From assembly GCA_960531495.1 (NCBI GenBank), contig OY482851.1, positions 26,944,033 through 27,008,032 on the forward strand: DNA of 64,000 nt, given 5' to 3'. Made by a program: the position numbers and the translations under genes. This document shows positions 5,931-64,000 of the stretch, piece by piece. The notes under the pieces are model-generated. The model was not told the origin of the DNA and searched no databases. It worked only from the letters and a program-made list of their open reading frames with translations. Numbering within the stretch: position 1 is the first letter of the stretch; each line of letters starts with the position of its first letter. Origin of the DNA: Zeus faber. Its lineage: Eukaryota; Chordata; Actinopteri; Zeiformes; Zeidae.

Positions 5931-8900
5931 GCGTGCGTGTGCGCGTGCGGGCCGCCTCTTTTTCCTGGTGCAAACACACTTTTCGTCAGAACAGAGACTG
6001 CGGTGATGTTTGTGAGGGGTGGCGAGGTGTGTGTCCATAGTTCTGCCTGGATGCAGCCAACTACCATGGTGGGGTCAGGGGGCTGAGAGAATGGAATCAC
6101 TTTGTTGAACCACAGTTAATGGGAAAGAGGAGTTATGTGGATGTTTGTGTTTATTTATTTTAAATATTTATGTATTATTTATTTAAAAAATAATATTTAT
6201 TATTTATTCCGACGATGCATTTGAGGGACAAAGTAAAAGATTAAGAGATGCTGTGTTACCTCAGATGCCTTTAAAGTCATGTTCAAGTCCCCAGAGGAAT
6301 GTCATTTCATGACTAAGCCACTGAACCATGGCGACATTGTCCTTGTACGCCTGTCAACGCTCCGCTGCCCTCTCTTAGGTACGTGGTGGTCTCCAGGAAG
6401 AAGCCCCCCATCAAGATCCAGCCCCCTTTCCTCCGCCCGGACCTCTCGGACCGGCAGATCACCATCAAGGTCAGCGACAACGGCATCCACAGCACCATCG
6501 TGGGCTCCAAGGTGAGTGGCTTGACGAGGCGTGAGCTGTGTAAACAATTCTGAATGAATGCCTCGCGAAAGCTTCACATTCAGGGAAATTCTTGATCATT
6601 CTTACCAAGTAGCATCATACTCTTTAATAAGTAAACGCTCCTTGTGTTTCCAATCGTGAGCCTACTTCACAATCAATAGGACAAACGCCAACAACAAACC
6701 CGAAGTCCATTCATTCCATGGAGAGTCGGACTCTGCAGGCGATAAACTGTGACGCACTGTGGTGCTGAGATGGCATCACATAACGTCACATATTATGTGA
6801 CGTTATGCGATGCCAAACTCAGATGCCGTTAATCTGACGGCCACTAGGGAGAGCATTCAATTGCCGGGTGCGGATACGGATTAGTTGTGAAGCAGCCTTT
6901 CGTCTTGGATTCAGATTTTGATGTTAAAACACTTTTGTGCTTGAACACTCGGAGAACAAATTACATCTTTAATCCCACTCACCTCTAAATGTAGAATTTT
7001 AGTTTACCTTTCATATTGTTGCAATTGTTACCCAGTATTAAAATATATTACCGATTTTCTCGTCACATGAAAGTGAAGTTGAACAGTGTGTTGGTTTTCT
7101 TCTGCTTTTCATTTGATACATATTTTTCCCATATTGTTTTCAATGCCGATCTCAGACCTGCTAACCTTGGGAAAAGATTTTTAGTACCACAATAGTGAAA
7201 CAGGGAGTCTCCGTGGCTTTGGATTTACTGCAGCTAAATGACTCCATCAGTTATTCACACCATAGACGTCTCGTAACAAGGCTAATTACATCGTAAGCAA
7301 GCTACTACGGCCAACTATATACAGTATACAAATTCAGTCATTAGGATATACCCCTTAAAATGCATCATCTTGTTAAGTTACTGAACATGTTTACCAACTA
7401 GAGATGCAATTTTCTTGACCGATTCAGATTAAAAAAAAATCTGACCTGCCAATTCTGATTTTCATTCAACTGTATGTTCATGATAAAACATTGACTTTTA
7501 AATACATTTTACAGTGTCATCTGATCATTTAGAGTTTATATCCGTGATCGAAGAAATACAATTTTCTTATCATTTGGTCTCATTGGGTATACCTGCTGTA
7601 CGTCTATGACAAATACATCGCGTGACCTGATCACGTGATAGCACAGCTGCACATACAGACTACCACTGCAATTTTCAGTTACCACAATAGTGAGATTTCT
7701 GATTTGGACACTGATCAAGCTGAAAACTGACCGACTGATTCGTGCATCTCTATTACCAACACTTTATATGTTAACATTGCCGTCACATTTTGTGATTTTT
7801 ACTCCCCTACTTCCCATTTTACCTCAGCAATGCAGCTTGGGTGGATAATATAGTAGTGCTTCGCTCAGTGCGCTGCGTATCAGTGGATGTTGAGTGAGAG
7901 GAGAGGGAGGGGAGGGCTTACACAACCACAGGTCGTAGCATCTGGTCCAATCCCAGGGATGTAGTGTAAATACCCAATGTACGGTATTGTTATTTATTGA
8001 CTGATTTATTGTTTTCCGTTTTTTTTGTTTTTTTTTGCTTAGCCTCAGCTGGCATTTCATACCTGCATATTTTGACCAAAAATTGTGTGGTTGGTACACA
8101 AAATGCGTGCAGGTTGGCAGGTCTACAAACTGATTGTTTAGTCATTTATTCAAAAATTACTCATCGGCCCATCGAGTTAATCCGTGTTTCTAGCTGATAC
8201 TTCTGAATCGCCCGTGGGGGGGGAAAGGATCTTGTTGTGTACCGTATGCATTGTGAGTAGTTTTAATCACCACCCCCACTTTCCAGTCCAAAAGCAGCCT
8301 GGACGACAAAGACGCTCAGCCTCCCCTGCCCCCCAAGGCTGACAGGTACAACCAGCTGAAGAGCCAGCTGACCTCCAGCGAAGGTAAAAGGACCCAACAG
8401 CTGATCCACACACCCCCCTCGAACACACATACATTCACACGCACGACCCCATTTTTCTCCTTTTCGTTCACTGTTATACTTTTACTTCCTGACTTGTGGA
8501 CTACCAAACCCATAGATAGATAGATATACAGTACATACACGCACACACACACACAAATCCAGCCTCTCCATCCCATCAGCACTGCACCAAACCGCTGTCT
8601 CACCAAACCTGATTCTTAAATCAGCCGTGTGACAATGTGTCTGACGTAGTGCTGGTTTAGCCTGATGGATGCCCGTGCCTGTGGCAGGTCATCGGCTTCT
8701 TTGGAAAATAAACGAATCTATACTACTGAGGTTACAGCACCTGGCAATGCCGTTTGAACGAGCCAGGGGATGGAGGACGGGAGGCTGTTATTTCAGGGCG
8801 GGTTTTGTAATCGCTTTCGATAAAGATGATGATGATGATACATTGAGGACCTGTTCTGTAAAGCTATATGAGGAGCCAGATCTCTATGGTGGATCTCTAG

Positions 8901-11900
8901 TAACATGCTGCATTGTCAGGGAGTGAACCAGTGTGTCTCCTCCGAGGAGTACTACCGCCTCCTGGTGGTGGTCGGTGGTACTGCGTCTGCATTTGCCACA
9001 CCTCTTGGATGGATTTCACCTGTAAGCCCTGGTGAAATCTTGGAAGAGGGCGTCCTCCCCGAGTACGGCAACGCTCCCCTGCACCGCACCTTCCAGTCCT
9101 CCCCTCTCCAGCTCGAATCCTACCCCATCGGCACCCGCACGCTGCGCTTGAAACAGGCGCACAAGTGGGTGGATAAGGGCCAGCTCCCTACCCTGCAGCC
9201 GGAGACACTTCCACCCCCTACAAAAGCGTCTTCACTCCCGGCACCCTGTCCAACCGAAACGGTAGCCTGTCCTCCGACAGCCTGCTGAACCCCAACATTT
9301 CCCCCGGCGGGGGCCACCGAGTACATGACCCACCCAGGGATTTCCTCCATGGGGTTGCACTCGCCCTACCTGCCCACCAAAACGTGCCACAACCGGGAAG
9401 CCAAACTGCAGAGGCAGCAGGCCCCCCCTACGTACAGCCCGGTGATGCAGGCCAGAGGACTGGGCAGGCGCTCGTCCCACCCAAGGGACAGGGACCCTTC
9501 CCCCGTGCGCTACGATAACCTCTCCCAGACCATCATGGCTTCCATCCAGGAGCAGAAGGACATGGAGAGGGAGAAGCTGCAGATGCTGCACGGGCGCTCC
9601 CAGGCCCAGGCCTACGCCCACGACTCGGGCATGTTTGACAGCCCGGGGGGCTACGGGCTTCCCCACGGCTCGTGCTACCAGGACAGGCCCCGCGGGCCCT
9701 CCTCCAGAGGCCCCACACCCCCGGCCTACGGAGGCTCCAGGAACAACATGATGGGGGTGGGGCTGGTGGGCTACGGCCCTAAGTCAGGCCGTGTATTGCT
9801 CAAGGAGGCTTAAAAAACATATATATTAATCTGCAGCTCCCTGTTTTCAGTACATGCACTGTAGCACCATTTTATATCTTGGCCCACATAATCATTATCA
9901 AATACTAAATCTGGTCTTCTTTCTTTGTGTGTGCATGTGTGCGTGTTCTAGAGAGTTCTCTGTCTGGTAAAACACACCCCTCCACCCCAGCCATGTACAA
10001 ATACAGGCCCTCCTTCGGCACCATGCCAAAGGTCCACTACCATGCTGCTGGAGAGAAGGTAGGAAATGCAAACAAACTTGTTTATAAATTGTTTTGAACA
10101 TTCAATACTTGTGCAAGGCTATGGACAAAACAGAGCGACATAAGGTTTGGATGCACTTTAGTGTGAAAACATAGTGTGTAATGCAATGATATGGTTCCGT
10201 CTGGCACTTTACTTACCCCTGAGTATGTGAAGGCTCAACAGCAGCGCACTGTTTCTGAACGACTTGAACCCTTTGTCTCGTGCTCACCCATTTTAGATTG
10301 TGATGCCCGATGACCTTAAGACGCCGGCCATCTTGGAAGAGGGCGTCCGCGGTCACGACTACCGCTCGGAGCCCAACCTGGACCTCCCCGAGTACGGCAA
10401 CGCTCCCCTGCACCGCACCTTCCAGTCCTCCCCTCTCCAGCTCGACTCCTACCCCATCGGCACCCGCACGCTGAGCTTGAAACAGGCGCACCGGCGGGTG
10501 GACAAGGGCCAGCTCCCTGCCCTGCAGCCGGAGACACTCACCTCCACCCCCTACAAAAGCGTCTTCACTCCCGGCACCCTGTCCAACCGAAACGGTAGCC
10601 TGTCCTACGACAGCCTGCTGAACCCCAACGTTTCCCCGGCGGGGGCCACCGAGTGCATGGCCCACCCAGGGATTTCCTCCATGGGGTTCCACTCGCCCTA
10701 CCTGCCCACCAAAATGTGCCACAACCGGGAAGCCGAACTGCAAAGACAGCAGGCCCCCCCTACGTACAGCCCGGTGATGCAGGCCAGAGGACTGGGCAGG
10801 CGCTCGCCCCACCTGAGGGACAGGGACCCTTCCCCCGTGCGCTACGATAACCTCTCCCAGACCATCATGGCTTCCATCCAGGAGCGGAAGGAGATGGAGG
10901 AGAGGGAGAAGCTGCAGATGCTGCACGGGCGCTCCCAGGCCCAGGCCTACGCCCACGACTCGGGCATGTTTGACAGCCCGGGGGGCTACGGGCTTCCCCA
11001 CGGCTCGTGCTACCAGGACAGGCCCCGCGGGCCCTCCTCCAGAGGCCCCACACCCCCGGCCTACGGAGGCTCCAGGGACAACCTGATGGGGGTGGGGCTG
11101 GTGGGCTACGGCCAGCGCACCCCTGTGCTGCGCCACGCCGGCTCCACGCTGGGCCGTGCCCCCAGGACTTCATCCACCTCCCTGCACACAGATCACAGCA
11201 GCACTAACAGCAGCCAGGGCCGGACCACTGGCCCCGAGCCGCTGTACCGCTCCCCGGCCCACCAGTCGCCCCACTCCCCCGCCATGCCCCGCTCGCCCTC
11301 TTACACCCACCAGAAACTGTCCTATATCGGCAACCTGGAGAGGACAGACTCCCCCCGCCTGGGAGGCCCAAGGTACGAATCCTAACATACCCCCTTTCTG
11401 GGACTGCGCATGCATGTTGTTGGGCAGTGGAGGAGCATTGAAGCCTGGCGCCCTCTGTTGTGAGTCTAAGTCTTGTGATGGCTGAGGACTTATACATATA
11501 ACTTCTTTGCATATTTGACACTTCAAAGACTTCATAAATACTGTCTGGTGTGTACTATGTACTGGATTTCTTTTCTTTTTGCCATCATAGAAAAATGTTT
11601 TCGTTCGCATTTTGTATTACTTTCCTAATATGCCATCTGTTGAATAAAGTTGATGGACTGCACGTTTTCATTTGCATGTTTTTTCAACACACCCATAACA
11701 CCTAACAATACTAACAAACACACCCTTACACCTCATCTTCTTTAAAATCATTTAATTTATTTTCTTCTGCTCTTTGTGATTCCCTTCCGAGACAGCTCCA
11801 TTGCCCGCATACATGCGGCCCCAATGGACCCGCTCACCTTGTGGTTTGACGTACTAACTCACTCCACCCCTTAACAACTTTGGTGTTTTGTAACCCCCCC

Positions 11901-12110
11901 CCCCCCCCCGAACGTTGACCCGTCGTTTTGAATCCCTCTCTTGTCCTATTTCTCCTTCCCCCTTTCAGGGAGGCCGTGATGCAGAGCAAAGTCAACGGCC
12001 AAAAGGACTGCCACCTCAGCTCCCAGGGCACGCCCCTCAGCCCCGGTCGCCACAATAACGTCAAAAAGGTCACGGGGGTGGGCGGCACCACTTACGAGAT
12101 CTCTGTGTGA
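2440..12110 (+). CDS. zdhhc8: Palmitoyltransferase ZDHHC8 (5' exons outside window)
   Basis: Integral-membrane protein S-acyltransferase that attaches palmitate to cysteines of target proteins. Exons: 2440-2597, 3671-3843, 5322-5424, 5774-5865, 6379-6511, 8287-8383, 9952-10058, 10297-11372, 11969-12110. All junctions are GT/AG and phases agree, giving 692 residues after a split first codon. The first exons encode the cysteine-rich domain ([18 protein letters not shown]), then [12 protein letters not shown] with the catalytic DHHC cysteine. Transmembrane segments 3 and 4 follow, then the TTxE motif as RGRTTNEQ. The long tail contains [14 protein letters not shown] and [10 protein letters not shown] and ends in the PDZ ligand [18 protein letters not shown] and STPAMYK fit ZDHHC8 better than its paralogue ZDHHC5. 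Transmembrane segments 1-2 are missing because their exons lie left of the window. A broken copy of the largest exon lies in the intron at 8384-9951. Which of the fish duplicates (8a or 8b) this is cannot be told here. Confidence 0.93.
2598..3670. other. zdhhc8 intron, no feature recognised
   Basis: AT-rich DNA between the cysteine-rich-domain exon and the DHHC exon. I see no mobile element or conserved block in it. Confidence 0.6.
4045..4435. repeat. Two tandem copies of a dispersed 'GAACGAATCG' repeat
   Basis: Segments near 4090-4260 and 4308-4430 share the order GAGTGACTCC, then AGTCATTTAAAAGA, then TGTTC...AACGA/ACAAATCG, then a CTTG(A/C)ATCAC block and GGTAGAG. The spacing is about 220 bp, so this is a diverged tandem pair. 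The motif is short, AT-balanced and of a style common in fish dispersed repeats. I cannot name the family. Confidence 0.5.
5578..5669. repeat. (TG)n microsatellite
   Basis: About 46 uninterrupted TG units in the zdhhc8 intron between exons 5322-5424 and 5774-5865. A second, shorter TG/CG-type run lies at about 5887-5947, just after the next exon. Confidence 0.97.
5887..5947. repeat. (GT)n microsatellite, impure end
   Basis: A GT run that degenerates into GTGCGT units, beginning about 20 bases after the splice donor of exon 5774-5865. Confidence 0.9.
6765..6822. repeat. Near-perfect palindrome
   Basis: The 20-base arm at 6772-6791 pairs with 6795-6814 with one mismatch around a three-base loop. 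Weaker pairing extends outward to CTGAG/CTCAG. Each arm contains TGACGT, the core of a CREB/ATF site, but nothing else points to regulation. Confidence 0.85.
7399..7752. mobile_element. hAT-type miniature element
   Basis: The element starts TAGAGATGCA and ends TGCATCTCTA, a perfect 10-base terminal inverted repeat. It is flanked by an exact 8-bp duplication, TTACCAAC, at 7391-7398 and 7753-7760. Eight-base duplications and TAGxGATGCA-type ends are hallmarks of hAT elements. At 354 bp with no open frame it is non-autonomous. Confidence 0.88.
8384..9036. other. zdhhc8 intron, left flank of duplicated exon
   Basis: Contains a short GATA/CA-rich patch near 8514-8553 and a GAT run near 8826-8840. 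From about 8900 to 9036 the base composition becomes GC-rich, but I cannot match this part to the zdhhc8 exons. Confidence 0.5.
9037..9778 (+). pseudogene. Broken intronic copy of the largest zdhhc8 exon
   Basis: Matches 10330-11113, the body of the long zdhhc8 exon, at roughly 96-97% by eye. Relative to that exon it has a 36-base in-frame deletion after GAGGGCGTC, a 4-base deletion in the GAGACACT region, one extra C in the C/G run near 9300, a 3-base deletion near 9566 and about two dozen substitutions. The 4-base loss breaks the frame. No splice acceptor or donor matching the real exon flanks it, and homology stops inside the exon at both ends. It lies in the intron before exon 9952-10058, so it precedes its parent. 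I infer a non-functional segmental copy, though the second half remains open. Confidence 0.88.
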
Positions 12111-16195: not shown

Positions 16196-21488
<5,293 letters not shown>

Positions 21489-32300: not shown

Positions 32301-35300
32301 GGGCTCCTTGGGCCGTGTCGAAGGCGCGGGTCTCCTTGACCTGCGTGCCGGGCAAGGAGTCACCCGGGGGTGGGGTGGGGGTGGGGCCATCCTCCTGCTC
32401 CTGGGCCGTAGAATCCGGCTCCTCAGCCCTCTCGCCCTCATCGACCGCCTTGGCGGGAGACACCTCGGCTGCGGGCGTCACCTCGCCGTTGAGCTCCCGC
32501 TCCTCCTGCGCCTTCATTTTCTTGTAGTGCAGACAGGGAACGCTGCTGGTGGGAGGGTCGTGTTTCTGTGCCGGGAGAATGGAATAGATTGCGATGCATT
32601 GCAGTCGGTGGAAGCTTTTGGGTTTGTATACATTTATAATCCTTGATTTCTCCCCATTTGAAGGTCAGAGTTTAGTGTGGTGTACGACATGAAAACAATG
32701 ACTATGATCGAGGGCTTGTGACTTAACTCTCAATTATTCTTCACTACAAAAACATAAGATTACTGGATCTACAAATCATATCTGGGACCAGTGCTACATA
32801 AAGTGCCGATCTCATTTTACACCCTTGAAATATTTTAGGCATTTCCCTGTGTTTCAACGGTCCTTTCCCTGCCAAAGAAACTAATTTGCAAATCAGAAAG
32901 ATATCTCTCAATTGGAGTAACAATTTTCACCTGATCAGTTGCAGAACAAGGTTGTTAATTATTTAATGTGACTTTCCAAGCTGTCCGTTGGCCGGGAGAA
33001 TTTATAAAGTTAACATAAGACTGGTATTAGTATATGACTGATAAAATTCTTAATTTAAAAACTATATTTACAAGTCTGTGATTGGGAACAATGCCGGTAG
33101 TATATTTTCTAGACCTAAAAAATGTGGTATTATTCAAAATACCCAAACATGGAGACCACTATATTGCTCCATCTCACCCTGATGCTACCAGTGCCCAGGA
33201 AGTATGGTCTGGACCAGGTGACCACCCTGGTCTCCCTGTGCAGATACACTGGAATGCCCGAGTTATGGAATGTCATGATCCATCCGTCAGGAAGTGGCTC
33301 AGTGGGTGGCCGCCCCCGACCTTAGAGAAGGGAGCACAATCACTACAATGGTACAGTTTCTATGAGAGATTTGAGGAAAAAACTACATGCGGACAACCAT
33401 AGACAGGCATCTACACACAGAAATGTCTCATTGTTAACCACCGTTTCAGCAGCTGAAAAGAATGAAACTACAATATTTGTTGGGAAAATAAACACCACAA
33501 CCCAAGCTTCAAAGCAGCGAATTTTGTGGATAAAAGGGCAAAGCCTTCCTTCCAGAACAAATCCTGCATCGGAAAAATTTTCCAATCATGTGGATCAACA
33601 GAAAGGTAACTTGCCTAGTGACAGTTCAAGGGGGGGGGGGGGGGTAGAAAGACACCAAGGGCAGCACAGTACATCATCTTGTTCAGAAAATTTTACAAAA
33701 ACAGATTGCGAGGAAGGTTATGCTACAACCTTCACCATTACCGTTAAAAAAAAAAAAAACCCTGGCCACTTTCCAGAACTCGGCACACTGACACCAGCAA
33801 ATCCACCCACTCACTCTTCAAGACAGTCTTTATTTTGGTCATCATGGGCTGAACGCCTCCTTCCCCATCCGACGGGTGGTCACTGTCACCGGCATACTTG
33901 TCCTCGGCCAGACGCATCTTTTTGGCAACCGGCAGGCCTTCCTCCAGCAGAGCGTCCACGTCGTTGTCAAACTCCTCCTGAAAGAGGTGACGGTTAGCTC
34001 CGAGACGGAAGACACGGCCTGTGGACTCCAGTCCAGGCAGCCCTTAAAAGCCTCAAAATAAATTGGAATCTATCACTAAAACTTTGGGATATACACCGAT
34101 CAGCCACAACATTAAAGCCACCACTAATTACCACTAATATTGTGTAACTCCCCCATGTGCCGCCAAAACAGCTCTGACCCGTCAAGGCACAGACTCCACA
34201 AGACCGCTGAAGGTGTCCTGTGGTATCCCCAGGTAAACAATGCACACGCACCTGGCCATCCACGTGACACATCAGACCAGGCCACCTTCTTCCATTACTA
34301 CATGGTCCAGTTCTGACGCTCACGTGCCCATTGTAGGCACTTTTGGCAGTGGACAGGGGTCAGCATGGGCACGCTGATCAGTCTGCGGCTACGCAGCCTC
34401 ATACGCAGCAAGCTGTGATGCACTGTGTGTTCTGACACCTTTCTATCATAGCAGCATTAACTTTTTCAGCAATTTGTGCAACAGTAGCTCTTCTGTGGGA
34501 TCGGACTAGAGGGCTAGACTTCACTCCCCACACTCATCAATAAGCCCATTACCCTGTCAGCAGTTGACCTGTTTTCCACTTTTGGTTGGTCCTAACCATT
34601 ACATACTTGGAACACCCCACAGGACCTGCCGTTTTGGAGATGCTCTGACAGTCGTCTTGCCGTCACAATTTGGTCCTTGTCAAAGCCGCTCAGATCATTA
34701 CACTTGCCCATTTTTCCTGCTTCCAAAACATCAACTTCAAGAACTGACTCTTCACTTGCTGCCTAATATATCCCACCCCTTGACAGATACCATTGGAACG
34801 AGATGAGCAGTGTTACTCACTTCACCTGGCAGTGGTTTTAATGTTGTGGCTGATCGTGTATGTATGTATGTATGTATGTATGTGTGTATGTATAGATAGG
34901 TTTTTTTTTTAGCATTAGGTAATCCCGTTGTATCCGTCAATGTATTTTTGGACATTTGTTTATAAGAAAGGATGTGTCCCATGTAGCGTCCCTGCAAACC
35001 ACCAAATGAATCCCTTGAAAACCTTAACTGAAAGGACAAAAAAGTCCTTCTAAGAGTTCCCTCATTACTTCTGAAGATTCTTGTGTCCAAGCAGCATCAA
35101 ACGTCTGGCAACAACAAATAGGACAAAATGATGAACCAGGCGAATGTGTGCACCATAACTAGCAGATGGTGTCAAGACAATTATTATTTTTTTTAATACG
35201 TACCTCGTAGGAGTAAGTTACGCCTTCCTCGTCGGCTTGCTCTTGCTGCGCTATCACCTCAGACCTAAAGCCGCCGCGCTCGCCCTCATCGGGATCCAGG

Positions 35301-38493: not shown

Positions 38494-59967
<21,474 letters not shown>

Positions 59968-60960: not shown

Positions 60961-61246
60961 GTTCCGGAAAAATAGACGCCCGCAGCACTGGACTTATTTT
61001 TTCATATATATATATATATATAACCCCAGCTATCGCCGCTTGTATATATATTGTATATTTGTTGTTCTTTTTAAAATTTATTTTTTGTTAATTAATTTTT
61101 ATTTTGTGTGTCTGGCCGATCATTTGCGCTTCTACCAAGAGGCGTTCGGATTTGTCCAGGTTCCAAACTCGATGGAATGCAGCATTGACAGCTGAGCCGT
61201 CTCGTCAAACGAGCTTTACTGGATGTGGACTCCAGCTGCTGCCTGT

Positions 61247-62175
61247 ATCTATACCCTTTACTCCACTGCATTTCAATATCTATACCCTTTACTCCACTGC
61301 ATTTCAATATCTATACCCTTTACTCCACTGCTTTTCAATATCTATACCCTTTACTCCACTGCATTTCAATATCTATACCCTTTACTCCACTGCTTTTCAA
61401 TATCTATACCCTTTACTCCACTGCATTTCAATATCTATACCCTTTACTCCACTGCATTTCAATATCTATACCCTTTACTCCACTGCATTTCAATATCTAT
61501 ACCCTTTACTCCACTGCATTTCAATATCTATACCCTTTACTCCACTGCATTTCAATATCTATACCCTTTACTCCACTGCATTTCAATATCTATACCTTTT
61601 ACTCCACTGCATTTCAATATCTATACCCTTTACTCCACTGCATTTCAATATCTATACCCTTTACTCCACTGCATTTCAATATCTATACCTTTTACTCCAC
61701 TGCATTTCAATATACATACCTTTTACTCCACTGCATTTCAATATCTATACCTTTTACTCCACTGCATTTCAGTACTGATACGTTTTACTCCACTGCATTT
61801 CAATATCTATACCTTTTACTCCACTGCATTTCAGTACTGATATGTTTTACTCCACTGCATTTCAATATCTATACCTTTTACTCCACTGCATTTCAATATC
61901 TATACGTTTTACTCCACTGCATTTCAATATCTATACCTTTTACTCCACTGCATTTCAATATCTATACGTTTTACTCCACTGCATTTCAATATCTATACCT
62001 TTTACTCCACTGCATTTCAATATCTATACGTTTTACTCCACTTCATTTCATTGTCTATACATTTTTTTCCACTACATTTCGACATCTATACCTTTTACTC
62101 CACTACATTTTAATATCTATATCTTGTACTCCATTACATTTCAATATTTATACCTTTTACACGACTACATTTCTA
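61247..62175. repeat. 31-bp minisatellite, about 30 copies
   Basis: Unit: ATCTATACCCTTTACTCCAC followed by TGCATTTCAAT. Units are near-identical from 61247 to about 61690. Variants (ACCTTTT, ACGTTTT, CAGTACTGATA) then appear, and the last five units drift. Because 31 is not a multiple of three, the long frames across it repeat a 31-residue peptide and are not genes. Confidence 0.97.
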
Positions 62176-62899: not shown

Positions 62900-64000
62900 C
62901 ACTCACCGGCCACTTTATTAGGTACACCTGTTCAATTGCTTGTGAACACAATAGCTAATCAGCCAATGACATGGCAGCAACTCATTGCATTTAGACATGT
63001 AGACATGGTGAGGATGACTTGCTGAAGTTCAAACCCAGCATCAGAATGGGGAAGAAAGGGCATTTAAGTGACTTTGAAGGTGGCATGGTTGTTGGTGCCA
63101 GACGGGCTGGTCTGAGTATTTCAGAAACTGCTGACCTACTGGGATTTTCACATTTACAGAGAATGGTCCGAAAAAGAGAAAATATCCAGTGAGCGGCCGT
63201 TGTGTGGACGGAAATGCCTTGTTGATGTCAGAGGAGCATAGGCAGACTGGTTCGAGACGACAGGAAGGCAACAGTAACTCAAATAACCACTCGTTACAAC
63301 CAAGGTATGCAGAATACCATCTCTGAACACACAACACGTCCAACCTTGAAGCAGATGGGCTACAGCAGCAGGAGACCACACCGGGTGCCACTCCTGTCAG
63401 CTAAGAACAGGAAACTACAGGAGGCTACAATTCACACAGGCTCACAACAAATGGACAAAAGAAGATTGGAAAAACGTTGCCTGGTCTGATGAGTCTCAAT
63501 TTCAGATGGTACGGTCAGAATTTGGCGTAAACAACATAAAAGCATGGATCCATCCTGCCTTGTATCAAGGGTTCCGGCTGGTGGTGGTGGTGTAATGGTG
63601 TGGGGGATATTTTCTTGGCACACTTTGGGCCCCTTATTACCAATTGAGCATGGTTTAAACGCCACAGCAGACCTGAGTATTGTTGCTGACCATGTCCATC
63701 CCTTTCTGAGCACAGTGGACCCATCTTCTGATGGCTACTTCCAGCAGGATAATGCACCATGTCACAAAGCTCAAATATTCTCAAACTGGTTTCATGAACA
63801 TGACAATGAGTTCACTCTACTCCAATGGCCTCCGCAGTCACCAGATCTCAATCCAATAGAGCACCTTTGGGATGTGGTGGAACCGGAGATTCGCATCCTG
63901 GATGTGCAGCCGACAAATCTGCAGCAACTGTGTGATGCCATCATGTCAGTATGAACCAAAATCTGTGAGGAATGTTTCCAACACCTTGTTGAATCTCTGC
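62900..64000 (+). mobile_element. Tc1-like transposon, cut by window edge
   Basis: Left end CACTCACCGGCCACTTTATT after a TA at 62898-62899. The transposase gene is inactivated: the helix-turn-helix part (63046-63192, SDFEGGMVVGARRAGLSISE) ends in a stop, and the DNA-binding tail (PTLKQMGYSSRRPHRVPLL) is followed by frame changes near 63480 and 63540. The catalytic part (63544-63954) keeps VMVWGIFS, YFQQDNAPCHKA and PPQSPDLNPIEHLWD, so the second D and the E of the DDE triad are visible. The right end lies beyond the window. Confidence 0.9.

Follow-up and report, generated by a model that had tools for sequence, protein, structure and literature searches.

Three systems described in the literature come close to the case presented here. 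In dmrt1 of the fish Solea senegalensis, a part of the gene including a partial exon is described as duplicated within the same gene (PMC7605655). Class 2 templated sequence insertions (class 2 TSIPs) are presented as copied patches that carry neither target-site duplication nor poly(A); those in the cell-culture system that the review covers come from distant loci, and an RNA template is argued for (PMC5110952). Pack-TIR duplications relocate gene fragments by a DNA process, described as gap filling or replication fork switching (PMC8277862). Here we describe a decayed copy of the middle of a large coding exon of zdhhc8, lying in an upstream intron of the same gene in Zeus faber (assembly GCA_960531495.1, contig OY482851.1, positions 26,944,033 to 27,008,032, forward strand; this stretch of 64,000 nucleotides is called the window, and all coordinates below refer to it). 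Like dmrt1, it concerns a gene part with a partial exon duplicated within one fish gene; like the class 2 TSIPs, it is a copied patch that lacks both marks; and like the Pack-TIR duplications, it would be a gene fragment relocated by a DNA process.

The copy occupies positions 9037-9778 of the + strand, in the intron 8384-9951, and its parent is the stretch 10330-11113 (784 bases, + strand), internal to the large exon 10297-11372. BLASTN and global alignment both recover the pair, and the numbers agree with the limits, identity and indels reported in a preliminary description of the locus. In the global alignment, 741 aligned columns contain 23 substitutions (96.9% identity), and relative to the parent the copy has lost 36, 4 and 3 bases and gained one C, so that the length difference of 42 bases is fully covered by these four indels, as had been claimed. 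BLASTN of the window against itself joined 9054-9778 with 10383-11113 (95.8% over 732 columns including gaps, E = 0), and the left block of the copy is a 19-base perfect match to 10330-10348 (E 1.2e-5). Both sequences have the same orientation, with the copy about 550 bases upstream of the parent, and the ends of the copy fall 33 and 259 bases inside the two ends of the parent exon. The copy has a G+C content of 65.6%, against 67.0% for the parent and 46.4% for the remainder of the intron. The self-comparison gave 167 rows longer than 60 bases (E up to 1e-5), at least 17 of them starting at 61-62 kb; copy and parent were the only pair in which a coding exon was recognised, the exons of the other genes being unmapped.

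The homology is confined to one exon and includes no recognisable intron sequence, a point of the preliminary description that is borne out both by the alignment ends and by tests of the flanks. On the left, similarity beyond the copy was at chance level (with plain shuffles p 0.93 for 100 bases and 0.48 for 40 bases, with dinucleotide shuffles p 0.13 for 300 bases). On the right, a weak similarity of 40 bases was found (100 bases, p 0.008 with plain and 0.01 with dinucleotide shuffles; a longer stretch, p 0.039 and 0.054, respectively); since several flank tests were made, we treated it as chance and not as longer homology. Concerning marks of insertion, no target-site duplication (a direct repeat over 6 bases) was present between the 70-base stretches at the two copy edges, and there is no terminal poly(A), the sole A/T run of at least 6 bases in the intron being A6 at 9812, 34 bases beyond the end of homology. 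The copy therefore lacks both marks by which a LINE-type processed retrocopy is recognised (3' poly(A) and target-site duplication), and this joint absence is what it shares with class 2 insertions. No terminal inverted repeats closely flanking the copy were found; there are only CA/TG-rich arms near both intron ends and a 10-base pair (9575-9584 and 9829-9838) that has one arm within the copy. The intron also contains a direct near-match of 12 bases (at 8529 and at 9848), and no convincing further copies of the flanks were found elsewhere in the window.

The preliminary description called the copy broken and its 4-base loss frameshifting. The frameshift is real, and so is a premature stop, TGA at 9286-9288 (+ strand) in the frame-shifted stretch, but the break is local and the rest of the copy is not ruined: because a C inserted in a C run at 9301 (+ strand), 92 bases after the loss, brings the parent frame back, the frame is interrupted by a single stop and most of the copy remains in the parent frame, the next stop lying at 9811-9813, past its end. 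These disabling changes stand beside a neutral pattern of substitution. Over codon positions 1, 2 and 3 the 23 substitutions are distributed as 10, 6 and 7; judged singly against the parent codon, 18 of them change the amino acid and 5 are silent, where the neutral expectation is about 15 to 7 (p 0.38). An omega of 0.3 or less is rejected (p < 0.001) and a value of 0.5 fits poorly (p 0.008, with lower values worse). The copy thus looks as if it evolves without selection, and its near-neutral ratio speaks against a maintained protein exon.

Comparison with a homolog indicates that the parent is ancestral and the copy derived. At 8 of the 18 codons that differ in amino acid, human ZDHHC5 agrees with either copy or parent, and in all eight cases with the parent (S, Y, A, E, P, R, D, L); at the other 10 codons it has a gap (three) or another residue (seven). 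From parent to copy, changes of G/C to A/T number 15 versus 6 of A/T to G/C, and 6 of the 23 substitutions hit a CpG of the parent, CpG making up 94 of the 741 positions (p 0.06). The differences are mildly clustered, the longest substitution-free run being 180 columns (p 0.035; the 3-base loss falls inside it, close to its beginning) and the index of dispersion giving p 0.037. If a rate of a few substitutions per billion years per site is assumed, the 3.1% divergence would make the copy some millions of years old.

We favour an origin by templated insertion of DNA in one local event. A stretch of about 780 bases internal to the large exon would have been copied as DNA into the intron about 550 bases upstream, keeping its orientation; a template switch during replication or the patch repair of a break would be the most likely route. 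Since it was inserted without the splice sites of the parent, the copy probably was never a used exon; later, within an intron that is spliced out, it would have drifted neutrally, accumulating substitutions and slippage-type indels and gaining one stop. Taken as a whole, this history of a copied piece decaying as an unused relic appears probable to us, though far from certain. We infer that the mechanism acted on DNA, that the origin took one step, and that the copy has no function; it is presumably not expressed. Most simply, then, it is a decayed intragenic partial exon duplication, an unprocessed partial pseudogene, and most likely a harmless relic of an accident of DNA copying or repair. 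Some points weigh on the other side. Restoration of the frame by the inserted C might point to past coding constraint on the copy, although this base falls within a C run; the differences, which are mildly clustered (p about 0.035), and the weak right-flank similarity (p 0.008-0.054) may be traces of conversion or of an older copy of greater length; and a tandem duplication that was afterwards trimmed fits the present structure equally well.

This last alternative is the one that survives best, and we consider it possible, although not likely. It supposes that 9779-11113, about 1,335 bases, was duplicated in tandem in the ordinary way, and that a deletion then took the intron, the exon 9952-10058 and the start of the large exon from the first copy. 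The copy ends at 9778, directly adjoining the start expected for the second unit at 9779, and the same orientation and short distance would also be natural. Moreover, duplications in tandem are in general more frequent than those at dispersed sites. The statement that the locus is unlike an ordinary tandem duplication is not established, as duplication of 9779-11113 plus one deletion leaves the same picture. However, two events are required, and a remnant of 9779-10329 upstream of 9037 was found neither in the self-comparison nor in the flank tests (p 0.13-0.93).

A reverse-transcribed fragment of mRNA, inserted as a retrocopy or as an RNA patch in the repair of a break, would account for a copy that contains exon sequence only. 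Because the homology lies within one exon, sequence content does not separate a DNA from an RNA source, and an mRNA origin could be hidden in a fragment taken from inside a single exon; class 2 TSIPs likewise lack target-site duplication and poly(A) (PMC5110952). The same restriction to one exon means, on the other hand, that there is no exon-exon junction, and neither poly(A) nor a target-site duplication marks the copy, while a source only 550 bases or so away fits naturally with a local event at the DNA level. The preliminary description had proposed template switching or an mRNA segment: the former is favoured here, while the latter bears no positive mark and seems to us unlikely.

We give still less credit to an old exon duplicate, once longer, whose core was repeatedly rewritten by conversion from the parent while its edges diverged; such a duplicate might in turn pass changes on to the parent or be used as a poison exon. 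Exchange between copy and parent, by gene conversion or by unequal recombination, is in principle possible, and conversion had been suggested earlier; the clustering of differences and the right-flank similarity are its sole hints, as they are for an older and longer copy, and we did not rely on them. Pairing of the two, also suggested, is not to be expected at the RNA level because they are direct and not inverted repeats.

Whatever the origin, the copy could be a cryptic and perhaps poison exon, spliced into some transcripts and adding a premature stop. Splice sites were scored with a textbook matrix of consensus frequencies, in which the real acceptors of the gene score 2.7, 0.2, 2.4 and 11.7 and its donors 7.0, 8.3 and 7.5. 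Inside the copy, an acceptor-like site at 9112 (5.3) exceeds three of the four real acceptors, and a donor-like site after 9765 reaches 6.3 (real donors 7.0-8.3). Outside the copy, the best acceptor-like site upstream (from 8701 on) is at 8901 with 0.0, near the weakest real one, and donor-like sites downstream follow 9936 (4.4, the best) and 9782 (2.6). A transcript spliced from 8383 to 9112 would run into a stop inside the cryptic exon, and a poison exon used at low level is conceivable. The internal sites, however, are also present in the parent exon, whose open frame implies no need for them, and selection on the copy shows no sign; the use of the copy in this way is very improbable. Nor does it look like a tandemly duplicated alternative exon, as no splice site of the parent was copied and a stop lies in frame. 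Finally, an assembly artefact, in the form of a second allele or an error placed in the intron, is hardly credible (the preliminary description had also judged it unlikely): a single assembly is the basis, but alleles of a coding exon are expected to differ mainly at silent sites and to keep the frame, whereas here 18 of 23 differences are non-silent, a ratio that speaks against a second allele, and the copy edges join unrelated intron sequence.

The gene itself is a DHHC palmitoyltransferase gene on the + strand, present in the window from at least its DHHC exons to the last coding exon, with the stop at 12110. The Pfam family DHHC is recognised in two reading frames (E 5.7e-07 and 2.9e-16), and the large exon encodes a ZDHHC5-like tail that matches human ZDHHC5 (PDB 9oa6, E 2.9e-21); the other four of the five matches listed for it are capsid proteins (E 0.66-0.74), which we took as chance. 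No Pfam family was recognised at E up to 0.1 in the large exon or in the two open stretches covering the copy (none of three). Neighbouring reading frames match DGCR8 (E 8.1e-42), TRMT2A (E 1.2e-27) and, in two frames, TANGO2 (E 2.4e-10 and 2.9e-10). In human 22q11.2 these three genes are neighbours of ZDHHC8, and zdhhc8 is for this reason the better name than zdhhc5. The gene name and the broken copy in its upstream intron, as given in the preliminary description, are supported by the DHHC and ZDHHC5 matches, by the neighbouring genes and by the alignment.

All the exons are on the + strand. Reading frame and splice sites define the exon upstream of the copy (8287-8383) and the one between copy and parent (9952-10058), which together bound the intron. 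The large coding exon (1,076 bases), the largest known of the gene, has its acceptor AG at 10295-10296 and its donor GT at 11373, and it is covered over its whole length by an open reading frame, which suggests that it is functional. The last coding exon (11969-12110), placed by reading frame and with its acceptor scored, ends in TYEISV and a stop. Relatives of the large exon were confirmed in none of 45 pattern-matching stretches of a prokaryotic contig collection and in none of 55 of a viral one, where little was expected, and ARAGORN with the bacterial code gave no tRNA genes in the window.

Other repeats were also noted in the window. A tandem array at 61246-62173 has a unit of 31 bases in about 30 copies (93% matches), and at 20013-20227 a unit of about 107 bases is present in two exact copies. 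Dispersed repeats with 81-88% identity, in both orientations, are found at 34090-34510, 51208-51683 and 56635-56879 and probably belong to a transposable element family; another pair, 864-1150 and 44242-44527, shares 84% identity, with 1-214 related at 75-79%. A reading frame at 63493-63951 contains a DDE superfamily endonuclease (Pfam DDE_3, E 3.9e-12), which we take to be probably a remnant of a Tc1-type transposase.

The locus offers a clean case in which a gene has placed a copy of one of its parts in one of its introns, and comparison of relatives would make it useful for separating template switching from trimmed tandem duplication. Crossing over between the direct repeats is predicted to delete about 1.3 kb (1,293-1,335 bases, from the coordinate differences at the two alignment ends), with the exon 9952-10058 and the acceptor 10295-10296, and short reads from the large exon may be mis-mapped to the intron copy. 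In the literature on zdhhc8 and teleosts no such copy appeared in titles and the beginnings of abstracts, the broader searches covering best-ranked papers; this is no proof that it is unpublished.

Compared with the systems described at the outset, the zdhhc8 copy differs from the dmrt1 duplication in being shorter than 0.8 kb, lying within a single exon and having no recognised repeat element at its edges (PMC7605655). It differs from the class 2 TSIPs in its source, which lies only about 550 bases away (PMC5110952), and from the Pack-TIR duplications in having no close terminal inverted repeats, but only CA/TG-type arms near the two intron ends and one 10-base pair (PMC8277862). The zdhhc8 copy is a fresh example of an already known kind, the intragenic partial exon duplication.
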